64,000 nt of DNA from Owenia fusiformis (lineage: Eukaryota; Annelida; Polychaeta; Sabellida; Oweniidae), in NCBI GenBank assembly GCA_903813345.2, contig CAIIXF020000006.1, positions 31,042,024 through 31,106,023 on the forward strand, given 5' to 3'. Position 1 is the first letter of the stretch. Every line of letters begins with the position of its first letter. Below the pieces are notes generated by a model. The model did no database searches, had not been told where the DNA came from, and was given only the letters and a program-made list of their open reading frames with translations. The position numbers and the translations under genes were made by a program. Positions 1,053 to 57,700 of the stretch are shown one piece after another.

Positions 1053-4000
1053 GCAGAAGAGCATTCTACTAGGCATGGGGGAGAGTTGGTAGCCGATGTG
1101 CTAAAGGTAACTATACTATTGTATATAGACTCTACTATCACTGTTCAAACTCATATATTAACCCATATTTAGTTCATCGTTTTGGACCTTGGATGTATAT
1201 CTTAATAAATGCTTAAATTACAGTGGTATCTTAGACACACATTCATTAGGCCTACTGTACATTATGTTAAATACTGTGTTTACAGTCCAAACTGTACAGT
1301 TTCTATCCATCTGCATTTAGAGTAGACAGTAAATACTGTGTTTATTGAACATTTTTGCCAAGAAAAAATAGTTCAGTGTTGGTAGTTATTCCCGTGCAGA
1401 GAGGGTTATTTATACAGAAGTCAGTAGAGTGTGTGCGGAGGAAGGGTGTCAAGTGTCCACTAGAGACGGGTGTTCATTAAGACAGGTTTTACTATAATTG
1501 TAATGTATTGAAAAAGATCTAATAAATGTTTTAAGTGGCTGATTTTAATATCAAAAATCGATAGCATCAATATAAGAATTGAGTAGACATAATTATTTCA
1601 TTGCATCATCACTTATTTATTTTCAGGCCCATGGTGTGAAATATGTTTTCACTTTAGTAGGAGGTCACATTTCTCCAATCTTGGTGGCTTGTGAGAAGCT
1701 GGGCATCAGAGTTGTTGACACAAGACATGAGGTGACGACAGTGTTTGCTGCAGATGCGGTGGCCAGACTATCAGGAACTGTTGGGGTAGCTGCTGTCACT
1801 GCTGGACCAGGTAAGCAATATCATATTTTACAAAATTACATACATTTCATTCCTTGGTCTTATTCAGCAGCAAATTGAAAGAAATTCTAGTTTATTTATA
1901 CTGCCTTATTATAACGATAGAATATAGTGAAGTTGCCTTTTTAGGCATTTAGCTGTCCATCCTAAAGGAAGGATTTCTCACATGGAAGGGGTGATATTGT
2001 AACTGTATTACTTTATTAACTGTATTACTCTATATGGAAATACATATAAGATAAAGTAAATAGATGAACAATGTATATTGACTGATCCACATCTTTACTT
2101 GGTTCAATAGGTCTAACCAACACAGTGACTGCAGTGAAGAATGCCCAGATGGCCGAGTCTCCACTGTTGCTTATAGGTGGAGCTGCTGCTACACTATTGA
2201 AGGTGAGGCATACTAGAGCTGATCTGTCAAATCAGATATTAGCTTTCTATAAAAAGAGCTATTGAACCTGATGCCCCTAATTCATGTACATGTAATATTG
2301 ATTAATCAGAGTTTATATGTATTTGACCTTCTGGATTGTAGAACTGCATCATTTATCATTTTGTGTGGCCAAATTTTAATACTACAGCTTATAATCACTG
2401 ATCTGACACTCATAAAATTGTAACGATTGGAAATAGACCAATGAGACTTCAGAGGATGAAAGAGGATTGGACAAGGTTCAATTGAGCCAAATAAAATAAA
2501 CCCATACTGGATGACTGAGTCATTTGATTTGTTTGGGTTACCTTTTTTGGCTCACCCTTTGACACTCACTTGGTTATTAGGATGTTCAGATAGGAGTAAC
2601 CAAATGGATTCATATCGGATACATGGAGGTGAAAATTGTTAGTTTTTTTATTATCTTCATCTTCTCAGACGAGGTGGTTGATTCGTATACCTCAAAATGC
2701 AAGACCATGCAAAGTGTACATATATGTGTATAGCATGACAGTTGTTCTGAAAAGTGAACACACAAATCAGTTTTATTGAAGTTGAACATTTTTGCATCTC
2801 AAATCTTTTATTTCCATGTTTTATCAGTTATCACCCATGTCAAGTCTTTTTCAGTTCGATAATAAGTGACATATTGACAAACTGCCTGTTTAAGCAATTT
2901 TGATATTGAATACTGAGACCAGTCTCGCCAATATTTGTATTTTGCATGATGAATTCAAATTATTTTCAGGGTCGGGGAGCACTGCAAGACATTGACCAGA
3001 TGTCCCTATTTAAACCCCTGTGCAAGTACTGTGCCACTATAAACAGGGTCAGAGATATAGTGCCCACTGTGAAGAAAGCTTTACAGATGGCCCAGTCAGG
3101 AACACCAGGTAATATTAGTTAGTTTGTCAATCAGTTCAGGGGTTTCACTAGAATTTCTCACAACAGCCCAAATAAATGAAAACAACAGGCAAAATTAACG
3201 GAAACCATTAATTTAACATGGATAAGCTGAAAAGATCCTAAAAACAGACAATTTTGTGAAAACAACTGATGAAAATCGCCTGTTGTCTGCTGCTAATGAA
3301 ACCCCTGCTGTTTGAATTCAGTTCACCCTTTTCTGCCTTAAACTGTTATTGTTTGAAACTTTATAGTCCAGAGATGTTGTGTCTGCAGTTTGTCTGTGCC
3401 AAATATCAAGTACATGTAGTTCTCATATTGTGAATTGATGGTATGTGAATTTTTATCTTACCTAAAAAGGTACGATATTGATATCAGCTTGATGGGCAGG
3501 CGAGTGGTGTCTCACTTTCTTGGTATCACGATTCCAGGAAAACTACTTGACGGATTTACTTCAAATTTTCATACATGTTACATGGTGAGAAGTTCTAGAG
3601 CTTATTAACTTTTCGGCAGCCATCTTGCATTCTGGAGGCCATCTTGGAAGTTTTTAGATAAATCTTGTCATCGCGATTCCAGGAAAAGCACTGAACGGAT
3701 TTACTTCAAATTTTCACACATGTTACATGGTAGGAAGTTCTAGAGTTGATTAACTTTTCGGTGGCCATATTGCTTTCTGGCAGCCATTTTAGAAGTTTGT
3801 AGATAAATCTTGTCATCGCGATTCCAGGAAAACCACTCAACGGATTTCCTTCAAATTTTCACACATGTTACATGGTAAGAAGTTCAAGAGCTGATTAACT
3901 TTTTGGTGGCCAGCTTGCATTCTGGGGGCCATCTTGGAAGTTTTAAGATAAATCGTGATTCCAGGAAAACAACTTGACGGATTTACTTTAAATTTTCACA

Positions 4001-7000
4001 CATGTTACATGGTAAGAAGTTGTAGAGCTGATCAACTTTTTGGCAGCCATCTTGCGTTCTAGTGGCCATTCTGGAAGTTTTTAGATAAATCTTCTCATCG
4101 CGATTCCAGGAAAACCACTCAATGGTTTTTCTTCAAATTTTTACACATGTTACATGGTAAGAAGTCCTTGAACTGATTAACTTTTCAGCAGCCATCTTAC
4201 TTTCTAGGTCATGAAGCCCACACTGCTATGTTTTAGGTACGATATTGTTCACCCTGTGCCTTGCATTCTTTTTGTCACCCTATATTAAAATGATATTTCT
4301 CAGAACAATGTTTGAAAAAATTGAATATTCTGTAGCTCGTGTGATATCCCATGATATATCTTTCCAATCCATTGCTACAATTAAATCTTACTTTTTCACC
4401 ATTTTAAAAAATGTAAGCAATTAATTTGATTTAATATCATGGGATAAAAGCCAGTCAAGTATGCATATGCACTCTTTATATTTTTAGGGCCAGTATTTAT
4501 TGAGTTCCCCATAGATACCCTATATCCCTACTCTATGGTGAAGAAGGAGATTGGAATGAAAGGTTCTTCAAAAGGCTTTGTGCAGAACGTAATACAATGG
4601 TAATATAATACAATGGTAATATAATACATTGGCAATATAATACATTGGTAATATAATACAATGGTAATATAATACAATGGCAATATAATACAATGGTAAT
4701 ATAATACATTGGCAATATAATACATTGGTAATATAATACAATGGTAATATAATACAATGGCAATATAATACAATGGTAATATAATACAATGGTAATATAA
4801 TACAATGGTAATATAATACAATGGTAATATGATACAATGGTAATATGATACAATGGTAATATAATACAATGGTAATATAATACAATGGTAATATAATACA
4901 ATGGTAATATAATACAATGGCAATATAATACAATGGTAATATAATACAATGGTAATATAATACAATGGTAATATAATACAATGGTAATATAATACAATGG
5001 TAATATAATACAATGGTAATATAATACAATGGCAATATAATACAATGGTAATATAATACAATGGTAATATAATACAATGGTAATATAATACAATGGTAAT
5101 ATAATACAATGGTAATATAATACAATGGTAATATAATACAATGGTAATATAATACAATGGTAATATAATACAATGGTAATATAATACAATGGCAATATAA
5201 TACAATGGCAATATAATACAATGGTAATATAATACAATGGTAATATAATACAATGGTAATATAATACAATGGTAATATAATACATATTGCTGTGTTTGTC
5301 AATGGCCAAAATATGACACCTGTCATCATGAGGAATTAAGGATTCAATTAAAGAATAGCAAAAACTTGGGATGGCTTTTTCATGCAGTATTGAGGGAGTA
5401 TGAACCTATTCCTTGATTGTTTCAGGTATCTTCAGAATCACTTGAATAACCTGTTTGCTGGAGCATGGGAGCCACAGAACAACAACCCTCTGCCTGTAGA
5501 GAGACCCATGCCCTCAGACTCTCAAAGTAAGTAGTCCAATCAGTGATCTATCTAGGTTGTCCACAGTGAGCGTATAGGAAAGACTCTAGGCATCTGTCTT
5601 TTGTGTAATTGTTCGTAGAATCATGAATAATACATTATTGTGATAGTTCTAGTATGATTTTGTCACATGCAGATCAGAAGCATTGATAACATGTACTGTA
5701 CTTCTACTTAATTCGGGGGCCAAATTGTTAAAGTCTGCCAAATTAAGTAGCCGCCAAATTCCCTGTAATTTTAGTAATATGTAAATAAGTACCATTATTG
5801 CATTGTAATATTGTAAGTCCACCAAATTAAATAGCGCCAAATTAAGTAGAAGTACAGTATAATTTTAGTTATTTGAGATGATACAGCGTCACCCTGTAAT
5901 TCAGGGTCACATTTTGTTATATGCAAATTATATTTTGGGAATTTTTGTGTTTTAAGTTCAACAATGTGTGGAGCTAGTCTCTCGGGCCAAGAAACCAGTA
6001 TTTGTACTTGGAAGCCAGTCAACCCTTCCCCCAGTGAAAGTGGAACGTTTGAAAGAAGCACTTGAGGTAATGATTATTACATCACCAGTCTACTAGTTAC
6101 CAATCTATATAAGGACCATGTAACAAAGAAGTTTGGTCACAATATCAGGGCCAGCCAGCAATACTGCCTTGATATGCCTGTTGCATGGTACCATTTAACA
6201 AACTTTCACCTAAATTTGTCAAATTTCCTCATTCCTATTGCATCAAAAAACACAAATCATAAAAAAGACCTGCTGAGAGAGAATCAATTTCACAGACTGA
6301 ATTCATGAGTGACGTGCGTCAAACCAGTTTAAAAATGATAAAGAGCTCTTGTTTTATGAAGTTTGTTGCTTTGCAGAAATCCAGTTTAATCTAATTTCCT
6401 GTAACGATCAGTTTTAAAAGAGTGAACAGAAAGTCAAATGAACAATGATAATTTTGACAAAAAGTCAAATCTTGAAGCAGTAGGTAATCAGTTATTCTTT
6501 CATGTTGTATGTTGGCCACTTCATTGACATGTGTGCAGTGTTTGTATAACTGAGATCAATTGTCATTTGTGATTAAAATTCACCCAAAATATTTTGCACA
6601 AGATTTAAAGTGGTATCATGCACTGCTTTTATTCCAGTCTATGGGTATCCCATGTTTCCTGGGTGGTATGTCGAGAGGTCTGCTGGGACGTAACAGCCCC
6701 ATACATATTCGCCAACGTCGTGGGGATGCACTCAAGGAGGCAGATGTTGTCATTCTAGCAGGTACTTTAAATATCTCCACAGAGAGTGGTGAGCTTAGCA
6801 TATATTCACATTCTTTCTTTAATATTCACTGTTTACAATGTCTTATTTTTAAGTCTATGCCTTGTACTTATTTTAGGTTCAGTGGCAGACTTCAGATTGG
6901 GATATGGAAGAACCCTCAGTCGTAAATCCAAGATCATTGCAGTAAATAGAAGCTATGAGCAGCTCTATAAGGTACAACACTCGCATAGAAATATATTTTT

Positions 7001-31682: not shown

Positions 31683-34600
31683 ATGTCTGGAAGTCCATAT
31701 CATAGAGTAAGTGTATGACCTTACATTGGAAATTGACTTCTTGAGAGGTAATCATGGCATAAATAAATAGATGCTTGATAGGGGAGATTTTGGAAAAACA
31801 AAAGTACATGTATTCGTACGTGAAAATAAACAATTCTCTTATGGTGCTATTGATTATTTTTATTACATAGGTGCCTGATGTGTCATACACTTACTTTGAT
31901 GACAGCAACACATATGATAATCTGAGTGATCCTGCCAGTCTAACACCTCAATTACTGATCACCAAAGATATGGAAATAATGGAGGATTGCAGTGATAGCA
32001 AAACATACACAGTCCTAGAGTCCTTCAAACAACAGACTGGAAATGTACCCAAGCCTACCAAGCCTCTGTCAATATCAAGTAAGTGTTAAAATTTGTGAAC
32101 GTTTTTTAGCTAATACAGGGTTTAAGTGACTAGTACATGAGGTTTTCGGTTCTTACAAAATTGATTACATGACGAAATATTTAGCATTATTCTATATAGT
32201 TTAATGATAATCATAGGTTTATCGATTTTGTTTCACTTGGATGAGACTAAATGCTTTTTTTGCTCTACCCTGTCGTTGACCAGTAATTCATGATGGAAAA
32301 GCATAGCTTTAAAATCATCCTTTATACTTGTGATGAGTACGATGATTTATTTTCATTCAAGGTGAATCGAACTTGTTAAGTTGGCAGCAGTGTCATCCTG
32401 AAAACTGGACCACCGAGCAGGTTTTGGATTGGTTGTTCTTCATGGCAGAATCAATCCAGGCAGGTGGAGATTTCCATGGAGAGAGATTCCAGGATTTCAA
32501 TGGCAAGGAAATGCGTAATCTGACAAGACTCCAGTTTCAGGAGCGTGATAATAAATATGGTGGCGCGTTGTATGACCACTTTCAACAGCTTCTACGTGGA
32601 GGTGAGACTTAGCTGTATACTTCAGTTTAATACTGTCGATAGAGTGTATTTAACATATGAACTCAACAAGTTGTTCAATAAAACTATTAATATCACTCAC
32701 ATTTCAATCACGTGATTCTTATATCATAATTTGTGTTTCCAGCTACATATAAACCACCCACCTTCAATGAAGGCCAATGTTATGATTCCTTGGAGTCTGA
32801 AGATGTTTCTGCTATGCAGACAAATATTGAGTTTTTAGGTAAGCTTTCTTGCCTTCATTTTAATTAGCTTTTGTTGCAGCTGAATTTCTTCCTCCACTAT
32901 ATGTTGTCATTGTTATGGTTTGTTTTTCGAGAAATATGAAAACATAAATATAATTGCAATGCTTCTACAGCAGTTATTTCATATCTTTTTATTTAATTAA
33001 CAGATGATAATATAAATATTAACGGTGAATGGTATGACATTGACCTGGATACTGACTTCAATCTGAATTGCGATGTCACCACTCTCTCCCCAACAACCGA
33101 GATGAAACATTCCCCAACACACAGTGATGAATCTGGATACACATCTGGAGGTATTACCTATTATTTTGATCTCACTTTATGCAATACTTTATGAAATACG
33201 ATCATTGTGGCATACAATGAACTGCAGTAATTTAATGAAATACAGTTAATATGCATAGTTTTAAGTTAAAAAGTTTAAAAGTTATTATACTTATTAACAA
33301 CCTTTTATACTGATACTTTTTATATACTGATACTTTTTAATTGTTTACTTATTACTGAGTTTTAGTGCTACTGAATTTGCTTTATTTTTGAGCTTTCTGA
33401 TTGTTATATTTACTTTTAGAATCTGACTGCAGTGACATGTTGGATGCTCAAATCCATTGCATTCCAATTCCAAAGCCTACAACTGCAACGATTCCCACAT
33501 TCCTAGATACATGGCCACCAATCACTCATTCTGCACCTGAAGTGAAGTTGGAGCATGCTGTCCCAAGGAAACGTTCAGTTGGACGACCAAGGAAGACCAG
33601 TTCGTCAAGTGAAGAGGGCTGTGATAACATCAGGAAAAGAGGCAGGAAACCTGGCCAAGGTAGTTATAGTTTGAGATAAAGTAAATTGCAAGTAATATCT
33701 CTAGTACAACTGTAGTAATTGAAACACAGAAATATTTATACAAGAAGAAATAGCAAGTCCAGCGTTTTCTGATTTTATTACATATTTATACTCATTATAA
33801 AGAACATACTCATTACACACTCATTTCTTATGTTTATAACTAAGTATATGTGTATTTTTAAAGGATCAAAGGGAAACCACTTGTGGGAGTTTATCAGGGA
33901 TCTGCTGAAGGACCCCAACTGTAGCAAGATGATTAAATGGGAGGACGAGTCTCTTGGTGTGTTCCGCTTTGTGCAGTCAGAAAATGTTGCAAAACTTTGG
34001 GGAAAGCGCAAGAACAACCCAGGAATGACATATGAGAAACTCAGCCGTGCTATGAGGTATATCTTCTCTCAGAATACCTGCTTATTGTGCTAAAAACTTA
34101 TTAAATAAGTTAAGACACAGCTTTACCTTTTGTTTCAAGAATTCCAGCTTTTTGGGCTTAATGGTTTCCAGATGCTTTCAAGAGAATTCACCTTACCTTT
34201 TGTTATTGTGCAAGTAGATTAAGTTTATTATCAAATTGTAGATTCATGTCCTGATTTGTGAAAATAGAAATTGCTATAATGTTTACATCAAATAAGATCT
34301 GCTTTTCTCTGGCTTTGACAGATTTTCACGAACAGCTGGCTACTTTTCCGCTCTTCCCACAAACAACAGGTACCCCAAGAAATTGTGTTTCAAATTTGGA
34401 GACAAGGCATATGGATGGCAGAAGGACTCCAAATATTAGGTTATTATAAAATTATTTGTAGAATGAGATCAATGTGTGACGAATGGTTACTCTTATACTT
34501 TCATGCATGATCTGTTGTCACCTGGCTTTGCTTTTGCTTCAATATTTTTTGTATGTATTAGTCCTTCGTGTTACAGCGTGTTTTAATATGAGATAAACAC

Positions 34601-47500: not shown

Positions 47501-48000
47501 NNNNNNNNNNNNNNNNNNNNNNNNNNNNNNNNNNNNNNNNNNNNNNNNNNNNNNNNNNNNNNNNNNNNNNNNNNNNNNNNNNNNNNNNNNNNNNNNNNNN
47601 NNNNNNNNNNNNNNNNNNNNNNNNNNNNNNNNNNNNNNNNNNNNNNNNNNNNNNNNNNNNNNNNNNNNNNNNNNNNNNNNNNNNNNNNNNNNNNNNNNNN
47701 NNNNNNNNNNNNNNNNNNNNNNNNNNNNNNNNNNNNNNNNNNNNNNNNNNNNNNNNNNNNNNNNNNNNNNNNNNNNNNNNNNNNNNNNNNNNNNNNNNNN
47801 NNNNNNNNNNNNNNNNNNNNNNNNNNNNNNNNNNNNNNNNNNNNNNNNNNNNNNNNNNNNNNNNNNNNNNNNNNNNNNNNNNNNNNNNNNNNNNNNNNNN
47901 NNNNNNNNNNNNNNNNNNNNNNNNNNNNNNNNNNNNNNNNNNNNNNNNNNNNNNNNNNNNNNNNNNNNNNNNNNNNNNNNNNNNNNNNNNNNNNNNNNNN
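47501..48000. other. Assembly gap (500 N)
   Basis: Exactly 500 undetermined bases, which suggests a placeholder length. It interrupts the likely 5' parts of both the ESE-like gene (minus) and the lectin gene (plus). Confidence 1.
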
Positions 48001-49014: not shown

Positions 49015-52000
49015 ACATACATCGAAACAGCAATAGCCGCAATGCAATCGACGAATAGCAGATGGATAGGGTTGAATGATGTAGATCAAAATAAAGGATG
49101 TCATCCTTGGAAATGGAGGGATGGCACAAGAGCAAATGATTTGTACATGTAAGTTAATAGGGAATTGCACGTTAGTACATTTGAGAGAGTAGATTTGACG
49201 CTTGTGGTTGCGAAAGACTTGTGAGACAGAAATGAAGAAAAACATTCATCTGAACATTATACCCATCGATTCCCTTATATATAAATAACGATTCTTGATC
49301 ATTGTTCATCATTAGATTATTATAGGTTTTGGAAAACTAGTCACTTTATTATTATGATTCACATGAATGAAGCAAATGACATCGTCACACAGGGATGAAT
49401 GAAAATAATCTAAACTGAATAAAAATAAAGAGTACAACGTTGCATCATTTTTTAAATTTGATTTTTTAGTAAATGGAATGCAGAACCAAACAGATGGAAT
49501 GATAATGAGCATTGTGGGAATATGCTAAAGAACGGCGTGATGAATGATGGAAATTGTGACTCTAAGCTTGCCTATATCTGTCGCTATGACCTTCCCTCGA
49601 GTAGTGATTCCTGTATAAACCAAGGAGATAACCGTTGGTGGAGACGTGGAGACTCATGTTACATGTTCTCAAGCAGAGAGGGGTCTTCTGGCATGACGTT
49701 CGATGGTGCTCGAGCAGAGTGTGGGAAAACACGAGGAGGTGATCTTGCCACATTTAGGACTGCTGACGAAGCGGTAGGTATAGTTTTCCGTAAAGGTCAT
49801 TTACTTTTATGTCCATAATTTCCTTTGGCTTAATTCAAAAAAAGTATATTTCAAATTTACGTACAGCATTTGTGTATATCAGATACTTCCGTTGGTTATT
49901 GTGTCTCCAAGAGTTTGAACTCCTAATTTCTATTTTCCCTGCCTTGTCATATTTTATAATTGTTGTGCTTTTATTCTGCAATGGAAATACCGTTATTAAC
50001 GATGTCATTTTGATATATCTTGTCAGTTGTCGAATTTATAAAAATGAAAGTACATCCATATTTGCGTTTTAGTTTTACATAAAGATCAGACTTTTTGTTT
50101 AAATAACCTGACCTCTGGCCAACCTCAATCTGGGCCAAACTGGTACCCTTTGCATTCGTTCAACTTCAATTCTTAAGAGAGCTTCGTCTAATGCCTTGGT
50201 CACATTTGCCCCGATTTTCACTACGGGGCCCGGCCGATTGAGTATTCTATTCAGAAATGTATTCAATTTTGAACAAAATACTTAATCGGCCGGGCGCTGG
50301 CCGAAGAATCGCAGCAAATGTGACCCAGGGATTAATAGTTTATAGTAGTTATAAACTTAGTAGTTTATAACTAGACTCTGCGAGCAGGGTACCAAACTGG
50401 TCATCCAATCAACCCATATTATGAATGTAAGATGTAAAATCCTATATTATTCCCTCTTTTCAAAGGAATGGATAAGAGAAATGGTGGGCGTCATGTGGAT
50501 AACATCTCCTGGTTGGTTGAATTTTTGGGTTGGTATGAACGACCGCGTTCAGACAGACGCCTGGAAGTGGGTGGACGATACACCCTACAATCCAGATTAT
50601 GTGTAAGTTCGTTCCCATGATCCCTGCGATAAGGCTCGCAAACAACTAAAACTCACCCGGAAAGGATTCAAATTATGTACATTTTTACTTTTAAGAGTTA
50701 AACGTTGATGCACTTCATGAATTAATGAAAAGTACCACCAAGCATTTTAATCTTCTTGCATTTAGGGTTTGGGAAAAGGACCCCAACAATTGGGACAAAA
50801 ACACCGAATGTGCTTTTATTAACCCCGACGGTTCATTTCACGACACGAGTTGTACATCAACCATTCCTGGTTATATTTGCCAGAAAACGGCAGGTGGAGG
50901 TACATTTTCTGAGTTTTAGTACAATTAACTCCTTACCCTGAAAAATGGGCCCAATAAGTGCAGTATGCATGAATGTTAACATTCTTTCTTTATTAAGGAA
51001 CACCAGCACCTTAAAAATTAACTTTTGAAATGTGTGGACTAAGCAATTCTTTCGACAGCGCTGTCATGCATGGTTCATGAAATTACTTGCTCACTATAGT
51101 TGGCCACTCTGTACAATGAGCTATATTACTAGTGCGACTTCCAGGCAGTGGTCCAAATCAAAACTGTCCATTTGGTTGGCGTGAAAGGGATGGTTCGTGC
51201 TACTACTTCAGTCCGAGGGACCGAGCATCACTCCTTAACTGGCAGGATTCAAGAACAGCCTGCCAAGCTCTAAAGACAGACGCTGATTTACTGTCTATTA
51301 CCAATGCTGATGAATCAGTGTGTACTTTGTACTTTGTACTCATCCTGCAATCTGACTTTAAATAAAGATGACGAATGAAAATCTCATTTTTGAAAAGTTG
51401 CATTGTGTTAGATAATAACACACTTTTGTAAATCAGTGTATTGGATCAGTAACGAATCATGCGTTACATTGAAATGGTCAATTTAAATAAATTCCAGTGA
51501 TGTTTTTATATTGATTTAGATGGCATTCGCGAATTAACTGTCGGCTGACGATTTAACTTGTATTTTATGCCCAACTCATTTAAAGATGAATAGTACCTGC
51601 TTCTATTCATATTTGAAAGCAGTAAAAATAGCAGTTAAATCATCAACCGGCAGTTGAATTCTAGAATGCTAGCTTCGTAACATGAACTTTTAGGAATGGG
51701 TGCGTGACCAATGTGGAATTATATGGTTGGACGATCCAACATGGCCTGGCTGGTGGACCGGACTGAATGACCTCCCCAATGGGAATCAAGGACCCTGGAA
51801 GTGGACTGATGGCAGTGAATATAGGGACGAATTAATGTAAGTAGAGTGATAAACTAAGGTAGCATTCGCAAATTCAACTGCCGACTGTCGGCTAACGATT
51901 TGATTTACTATTATTTTATGTTTAACTCCAGAAAATAGTAGGCCAAATCAGCTGAATTCGTTTGCTTGCTCAGTGAATCTGTTGTCCGCATAAAAATTGT

Positions 52001-54710: not shown

Positions 54711-57700
54711 CTACTGAACTCTTTTTGGGATTGGGTTAACAATCATGCTCTCAATACATTCAAATACAGTATGAGGATCTTGGTCTGCATTGATATGCTG
54801 ACAGTCTGGGTAACAGTCTGAGATTTCTTCCATGTATGTATTAAACTCTGAAAGTCTTTTCCGAACATTTTCTTCGCTATCTTTTGGGTGTCTTTCTAGT
54901 CTCTCCTTGACTTCTTGTGTTCTTGGTGGGTTGTATAACATGTGGTAACGCTCTCCAGTGATTGGATCTGTGGCACGTAGTGTTAATCTTTCAATGACAG
55001 AGTCATTTGGTACATCAAGGAAAAACTCTCTGAAATTAGAGTAAAATAAAATTAGAGAATTAAAAACGTATGTATGGACTTATAACTCCGGTTAACATGT
55101 AACTAGAACACTGTCCTGAAACAACATGGTTGAATTTTTGAAAGTGGGATCATTTATTTTCTCAATTAAAACAGCTTCTTTCTGGTACAATTTTTAAAAT
55201 GATTGTTAGACAGGGCGTTTCAACTAGAAAAACAGCAACTTTAAGGCGTGGCAAATCCCACTAAACAAACATATTTTATCAAACCATCAAATCATTCGTC
55301 ATCTAAAATGTTCTAATTGTTAGGTACATGTCCTGCTCTGGCAAGCTGTTCAGCCTGTTCTCCTGTCTTTGGGTAGCCATGCAGGACCCAACCACTTATG
55401 GTGGTGATATTATAAAACCATCTTTCCCCCTAATGCTTACCTGTAAGGTACATGTCCTGCCCTGGCAAGCTGTTCAGCCTGTTCTCCTGTCTTTGGGTAG
55501 CCATGCAGGACCCAACCACTTATGGTGGTGATATTATAACACCATCTTTCCCCCTAATGCTTACCTGTAAGGTACATGTCCTGCCCTGGCAAGCTGTTCA
55601 GCCTGTTCTCCTGTCTTTGGGTAGCCATGCAGGACCCAACCACTTATGGTGGGGACATTATAACACCATCTTTCCCCAAATGCTTACCTGTTAGGTACAT
55701 GTCCTGCCCTGGCAAGCTGTTCAGCCTGTTCTCCTGTCTTTGGGTAGCCATGCAGGACCCAACCACTTATGGTGGTGACTTTATAACACCATCTTTCCCC
55801 AAATGCTTACCTGTTAGGTACATGTCCTGCCCTGGCAAGCTGTTCAGCCTGTTCTCCTGTCTTTGGGTAGCCATGCAGGACCCAACCACTTATGGTGGGG
55901 ACATTATAACACCATCTTTCCCCAAATGCTTACCTGTTAGGTACATGTCCTGCCCTGGCAAGCTGTTCAGCCTGTTCTCCTGTCTTTGGGTAGCCATGCA
56001 GGACCCAACCACGACTCACACAGTCTAACTGACCAAGCCTCTCCCCAAGGATGTTCAACACAAGCTGATCTGGGACTGAAAACAATTCCATAAATTGATC
56101 ATATGAGGTAGGCTAGGTTTGTACTTGTTCATTATGCTTTTTAAGCCATAATTTACAGTAGTTCCATCAGTACAGGGGATTTTGTGGTAAATTCATAGAC
56201 TTGTACAGAATACAGTATAATGATTACCTTTATTAATAATAAAATGTTGGTTTAAAATCGAATGTTACTGACTTTTACTTATTTATGTCTTTGTCAATAC
56301 AGTAAAACCTGTTATAATCGGAACGCCATTCCACAAGAAGTGTGAACACATTCTCAATAATATTTTTAGTACATTTGACCACTAAGTTTTATGGCAATCC
56401 AATAATTTGAAAACTGATGAATTTAGTAATGCTGGAAAGCCCCATTATGATTGAGAGCATTCAAAGGTTTTTCCAAAAGTTTTGAAATCATGACAAATCA
56501 GAATTTCATTTTCAAATATTTGAGCAATTTTGTATGAAACATGTAATATTTTATAAAAACTGTTCAGATTAAACAGGATAAGTTTTCAAATACGAGTGTT
56601 CAAATTGGGAGGTGTTCACATTACAAGATTTTTTTTAACATGGGAGTCAATCGGGAGGACTGAAAAATAGTGTTCAGATTGGGAGGTGTTCGGATAAGCC
56701 AGGTGTTTTGATATACAGGTTTTAATGTATATGACTCTTACTTATTCATACATAATTGCATATGTCAATGTATGATCTCTACTTACTCATCATGCCTTTG
56801 TCAATATATGGCTTGGCTGCTAATCCTTGTTTTGTCTCATCAGCTATGGCTTGTTTAATCAATAATCCACACGACACTAAAAATAACAAAATAACACAAA
56901 TCAGGGTAATTTACAGGGTGGGCCCAAAAATAGGACGCTCACATATATATTTTTTAAAAGAGTGCAATGAACCAAATGTCATAAACAGTAATGGCCTGAA
57001 AACAGTGTTTCTGCACTAAACCAGGACTAGGTTGTGAAAATAATTTGGTTTCACATTTGGTAAATTTTGAAAATAAAATCTGTGTAAAAGAAAATGACAA
57101 TTTACAGAACTTGTATTGCCGATAAAGGATAGACATATTAATCATTCTTTCGTAGATTTCTTCATGCTATTACACATACAACTGTTTCAAGCATTTTTAC
57201 ACTATATCTGCAATCTTTTCAGAAAAATTCGAAAAGATTTCATCATGATTGAGCAAGTTATAATTTTTTGTGTCACCCTGTATTATAACAACACTTACCA
57301 TTAACAATATTATATTTGTTGGCTAAAAGAGCTGCTTGGACTGCTTTACCACTGCCAGTCGGACCCATTAGGACAACTCTAGGAGTATGTGGGGCAGCGC
57401 TGCGGGGATTACTACACAGGAAGGTAAATGCTGAAAATAACAAGGGATCTTTTTGTATGGTTCGCCTCAAGCTTCTGGGGAACCACTCAATCTACAGGGT
57501 TGTGTAATAAATTTACTTTTCTTGGAGAGCACTCGATGTATGTATGATCAATTTAGTATTCTGGGGGAACAGTAAAAGCACTCAATTAAATTTTGGATAA
57601 TAAATATAGCACAAAAAAGTCGCTTTTAGGGTGTCATTTTTAGGGGAAATTATAACATTTAAAAAAAATGTTATTACTTTTATTACTATTGACTCCTGAA

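Follow-up and report, generated by a model that had tools for sequence, protein, structure and literature searches.

A minisatellite with multiple splice donors in an interferon-induced transcript was reportedly described by Turri, Cuin and Porter in 1995; its unit is said to be far shorter than the one dealt with here, about 12 nt, and its alternative donors are said to be really used. In human genes located in segmental duplications, internal tandem repeats at exon-intron boundaries have been described, with 27 intron modifications (PMC2812944). In the RdRp of potato (PMC4974935) and in fission yeast, where two introns consist of 24-nt tandem repeats (PMC3629103), introns are reported to have been gained through tandem duplication.

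A comparable arrangement was found in a window of 64,000 nucleotides from the annelid Owenia fusiformis, where a tandem array lies at the junction between exon 9 and intron 9 of a gene identified as AK8. We consider it probable that this array is a young minisatellite derived from the exon, with the first donor being used and copies 2-6 being removed together with intron 9. With the minisatellite reported in 1995 it has in common tandem repeat units that offer splice donors. It also resembles the human boundary repeats in that tandem units of minisatellite size span an exon-intron boundary, whereas those repeats (PMC2812944) have a mean of 30 bp x 4 copies, belong to recently duplicated genes and have RNA support, and the AK8 array has 123 bp x 5.6 copies. 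With the introns born by duplication it shares GT...AG segments whose loss can restore the message (PMC4974935, PMC3629103), but the AG|GT that is repeated in AK8 was already a donor junction, so that an old intron has been lengthened and none newly made. The AG|GT segments of the Rogers model, which explains intron gain by such duplication, are present in the array, as four segments between five CAG|GTAAGC sequences, three of them of 123 nt and one of 124 nt. In our reading the array belongs with the published boundary repeats and duplications, of which it would be one more case with no new mechanism; it was not found in print among the matches listed for literature on AK8 with tandem exons, repeats and splice donors.

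The locus is a clean natural example, apparently a young one, of a donor junction repeated to five copies with the message predicted to stay unbroken. It could be used to ask how the choice among several identical donors is made, and whether units bounded by AG|GT leave one by one. For gene annotators it carries a caution, as 26-codon exons should not be added here.

The AK8 gene and the layout of the array

On the minus strand of the window, a gene of ten exons was modelled from 62451 to 54711 by fitting exons through GT-AG introns and matching phases. Its coding sequence of 1440 nt, including the stop, gives a protein of 479 aa, whose residues 1-478 align without gaps with residues 20-497 of 9fqr_G8, a chain of solved structure named Adenylate kinase 8 (E 1.6e-155), and in the same comparison single-domain kinases match the model at 59-252 or 271-469. 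As the protein matches a named AK8 from end to end, both adenylate kinase domains included, the gene is identified as an animal AK8, in agreement with the preliminary description, which also gave the repeated exon its right number, 9 (of 10 in the model). The GYPKT segment, which is located in exon 9, is a conserved adenylate kinase motif. Against Pfam ADK (cut-off 26.8 bits), exon 9 was detected with 28.1 bits (E 2.6e-06), two further pieces of AK8 remained under the cut-off with 18.8 and 17.1 bits, and exon 10 alone matches 9fqr_G8 with an E value of 1.2e-40.

The repeat that had been noticed at this place was confirmed both by Tandem Repeats Finder (55318-56012, period 123, 5.6 copies, 97% matches) and by cutting the sequence in gene orientation, which gives six copies with successive spacings of 123, 123, 123, 124 and 124 (Table 1). 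The unit is made of the final 78 nt of exon 9 followed by 45 or 46 intronic nt (GTAAGC...CATAAG), in such a manner that the array has six exonic and five intronic parts, that is, five units plus 77 nt. Tandem units thus lie across the modelled exon-intron boundary, as in an internal tandem repeat. The GTAAGC donor follows copies 1-5, the five donors that had been said to be kept, and is missing in copy 6, where the match ends at the second-last exonic base and the sequence reads CCTAACA and then ATTAG. The 5' part of exon 9 (56075-56012) is outside the repeat, which begins within the exon; the span first proposed, 55323-56075, covers most of the array but takes in this unrepeated part, and the true end is at 55318. 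Without the array, intron 9 would by arithmetic have around 333 nt (45 nt plus a right flank of 288 nt).

Table 1. Features of the AK8 exon 9/intron 9 array in window coordinates. On the minus strand, the exonic segments start at 56011, 55888, 55765, 55642, 55518 and 55394.
Feature	Position	Strand	Remarks
AK8 exon 9	55934..56075	-	142 nt, ends in phase 2; gene model, Pfam ADK, 9fqr_G8 alignment
Copy 1, exonic part	55934..56011	-	last 78 nt of exon 9
Copy 1, donor 1 GTAAGC and 45-nt intronic part	55889..55933	-	donor score 11.2
Copy 2, exonic part	55811..55888	-	same sequence as copy 1
Copy 2, donor and 45-nt intronic part	55766..55810	-	2 differences from copy 1
Copy 3, exonic part	55688..55765	-	same sequence as copy 1
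Copy 3, donor and 45-nt intronic part	55643..55687	-	same sequence as copy 1
Copy 4, exonic part	55565..55642	-	AAC to TAC
Copy 4, donor and 46-nt intronic part	55519..55564	-	
Copy 5, exonic part	55441..55518	-	AAC to TAC
Copy 5, donor and 46-nt intronic part	55395..55440	-	
Copy 6, 77 nt exonic	55318..55394	-	one synonymous change; no donor; in frame leads to TAG
Intron 9	55030..55933	-	904 nt
AK8 exon 10 (last, with stop codon)	54711..55029	-	acceptor AATTTCAG|A, score 11.4

Taking the two strands of the window together, there are six occurrences of the 9-mer CAGGTAAGC, five of them within the array; the other is at 1808, within an open stretch of the plus strand (1576-1875) that encodes the N-terminal domain of a thiamine pyrophosphate enzyme (E 5e-20). 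No more copies of the 123-bp unit were found elsewhere in the window at E 0.1 or less, and an exact 29-base pattern from the exon copy was absent from viral_contigs and genome_contigs, which are non-eukaryote collections. Rfam gave no match at gathering scores in the whole window, and the test for RNA structure in one unit (copy 2, 124 nt) showed no signal, with a z of -0.23 and 79 of 200 shuffles folding as well or better.

An antisense open frame of 156 codons on the plus strand (55558-56025), consisting of 41-residue repeats, was rejected as a by-product, since the 123-bp unit has one open frame; among shuffled 123-mers, 1247 of 2000 have at least one. After copy 6, at 55273-55288 of the minus strand, a stretch of 16 nt resembles the intron of copy 5 with a score of 22, which was equalled in 3 of 1000 shuffles, against 147 of 1000 when the copy 1 intron was used. 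A decayed sixth intronic part would be hard to square with this, as the copy 1 intron gives no clear match and the neighbouring exonic part has changed at no more than two positions.

Splice signals and the predicted removal of the copies

Splice sites were scored with a simple consensus from general frequencies, which gives rough values and was not trained on this species. On this scale donor 1 (CAG|GTAAGC) reaches 11.2, the top of the nine modelled donors (range 1.1-11.2), and the acceptor of exon 10 is the highest of the nine modelled acceptors (5.2-11.4). True exon 9 lies directly upstream of donor 1 only, and when this donor is joined to exon 10 the open 479-aa AK8 protein is obtained. 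Read-through beyond donor 1 runs immediately into a TAA that follows residue 374, just as had been described, and the use of donors 2-5 with no splicing between copies leads to a stop right after the same residue.

In the pre-mRNA, the spliceosome would join donor 1 to the exon 10 acceptor, and copies 2-6 would leave within the lengthened intron 9. We regard this direct joining as by far the most likely route, the removal of the units one by one being less likely. Since the boundaries between units read AG|GTAAGC, it follows from the sequence that the message would be identical by both routes, with donor 1 spliced straight to exon 10 or with single units of 123 or 124 nt removed in turn. This would explain that the array is tolerated and would make it close to neutral for the protein. 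The copies are thus most likely spliced out without harm.

A point against this reading is that donors 2-5 may compete with donor 1, all of them being the same 9-mer. In such a case, transcripts retaining units would meet the TAA and be degraded, and the copy number would tune the output of AK8. In favour of this, the five identical donors are the top-scoring ones in the gene and read-through gives an immediate stop; the minisatellite reported by Turri, Cuin and Porter (1995) would be a precedent. However, donor 1 has equal strength and is the nearest to the acceptor of exon 9, and we consider competition of this kind improbable.

The acceptor of a ratchet point in recursive splicing includes a pyrimidine tract. 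If the boundaries between units were recursive splice sites, units would be removed singly with the donor restored at each step, and the product would be the normal message. The AG|GTAAGC of copies 1-5 does juxtapose an acceptor AG and a donor GT, as ratchet points do (PMC8605326). Nevertheless, the AG side is weak, with rough scores of 2.0 in copies 1-3 and 3.8 in copies 4-5 against 5.2-11.4 at the modelled acceptors, and 23-38% of the AGs of the window reach these values. In addition, intron 9 has only 904 nt, a short host compared with the long introns in which the ratchet points of Drosophila are predominantly found (PMC8605326). The AK8 boundaries would be putative sites of this kind at most, and we give recursive removal almost no credit.

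The copies might also be true mini-exons, in which case introns of 45-46 nt (GTAAGC...CATAAG) would be spliced out and 26 codons would be added per copy, for up to four copies (2-5). The in-frame addition of 78 nt is arithmetically possible, as was pointed out: with one to four extra copies of 26 codons the frame remains open, giving isoforms of 505-583 aa with no stop. Copy 6, which has no donor and ends in TAG, is unable to join such an inclusion. The lower variation of exonic with respect to intronic parts is in line with this proposal, and so is the number of pyrimidines among the 20 nt preceding the AG, which at 10-12 for the ATAAG|T sites overlaps the 10-16 of the modelled acceptors; the earlier statement that a pyrimidine tract is lacking was slightly overstated.

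Against the mini-exons, the putative acceptor ATAAG|T before copies 2-6 has rough consensus scores of -0.5, -3.0, -0.5, -0.7 and -0.7, lower than any of the nine modelled acceptors and comparable with random AGs, given that 62% of the 6425 AGs in the window reach -0.5 and 82% reach -3.0. The suggestion that this AG could be an acceptor is not borne out as a likely one. The 45-bp intron was rightly called very short, as the nine AK8 introns range from 262 to 1839 nt, a sample too small to set a limit for the species. Furthermore, the AK8 chain 9fqr_G8 carries no insertion here, and the single exonic difference within copies 1-5 is non-synonymous. We regard the mini-exon route as very unlikely, even though human introns with short, truncated pyrimidine tracts can be spliced with SPF45/RBM17 (PMC8363638), the model intron there having 56 nt.

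Differences between the copies

The preliminary description held that the intronic parts differ more than the exonic ones. This was found in the counts, with 2 variable columns out of 77 in the exonic parts (six copies) and 6 out of 46 in the intronic parts (five copies), although the contrast is only marginal. Two-sided Fisher tests gave p = 0.051 with all copies and p = 0.010 with copies 1-5 only (1/78 against 6/46), and without the column with a one-base gap these values were 0.099 and 0.024, respectively. When differences were counted as events, three versions of a binomial test gave p of 0.012 to 0.027. Three of the intronic variable columns (32, 33 and 36) lie within five bases. The lower divergence of the exonic parts is suggestive, not firm (p about 0.01-0.1), and, marginal as it is, it speaks against the minisatellite reading, in that plain neutrality does not predict it.

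Among copies 1-5 the exonic parts differ at a single position, where copies 4 and 5 have Tyr in place of Asn, and the change of copy 6 is synonymous in the frame of the gene. The extra copies do not look like sequence under selection for coding, two changes being too few for a test, and with a replacement as the sole change and a marginal contrast in divergence the selection put forward earlier finds no backing. Copies 4 and 5 also have a one-base insertion in common. Copies 1 and 3 are identical and copy 2, between them, has two differences, which indicates that growth was not simply unit after unit, or that copy 2 changed alone. Gene conversion could be thought of for such a pattern, but it is not required, since the variable columns, read by eye, fit a single tree (((1,3),2),(4,5)) with no repeated change. 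As to the very recent origin that had been offered, the copies are indeed alike enough to look recent.

It could also be that the array is in use, with AK8 isoforms or amount differing between individuals according to how many identical strong donors, or how many in-frame repeats of the 26-codon GYPKT-helix segment of adenylate kinase, are present, and with the exonic parts kept alike by selection or conversion; we hold this to be unlikely.

An assembly artefact or a rare allele has a similarly small probability in our view. The window contains a run of exactly 500 N (47501-48000), probably a scaffold gap, and the identity of copies 1 and 3 makes that pair alone compatible with an artefact. 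However, the gap is more than 7 kb distant, the array measures only 0.7 kb, and the copies differ by substitutions and by the insertion common to copies 4 and 5. The reality of the array rests on these differences between its copies.

Possible origin of the array and other features of the window

For the young minisatellite that we favour, the final 77-78 nt of exon 9 may have been copied into intron 9 at around 45 bp from its start, which made a 123-bp unit; this would then have expanded to 5.6 copies, the pair of 77-nt repeats being enlarged by unequal exchange or slippage. From a 77-nt copy of the exon end landing at that distance and a subsequent expansion, an array of five units plus 77 nt is expected. 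A plain tandem duplication followed by the loss of the last intronic part would fit equally well.

Other tandem repeats were seen in the window, with around 43 copies of an AT-rich 16-bp unit at 4590-5284 (97% matches) and 4.8 copies of 145-bp units at 3518-4205 (84% matches). On the plus strand, an exon with an Ets domain (E 1.4e-26) is located at 33773-34090, and one with a C-type lectin domain (E 2.8e-08) at 49462-49815.
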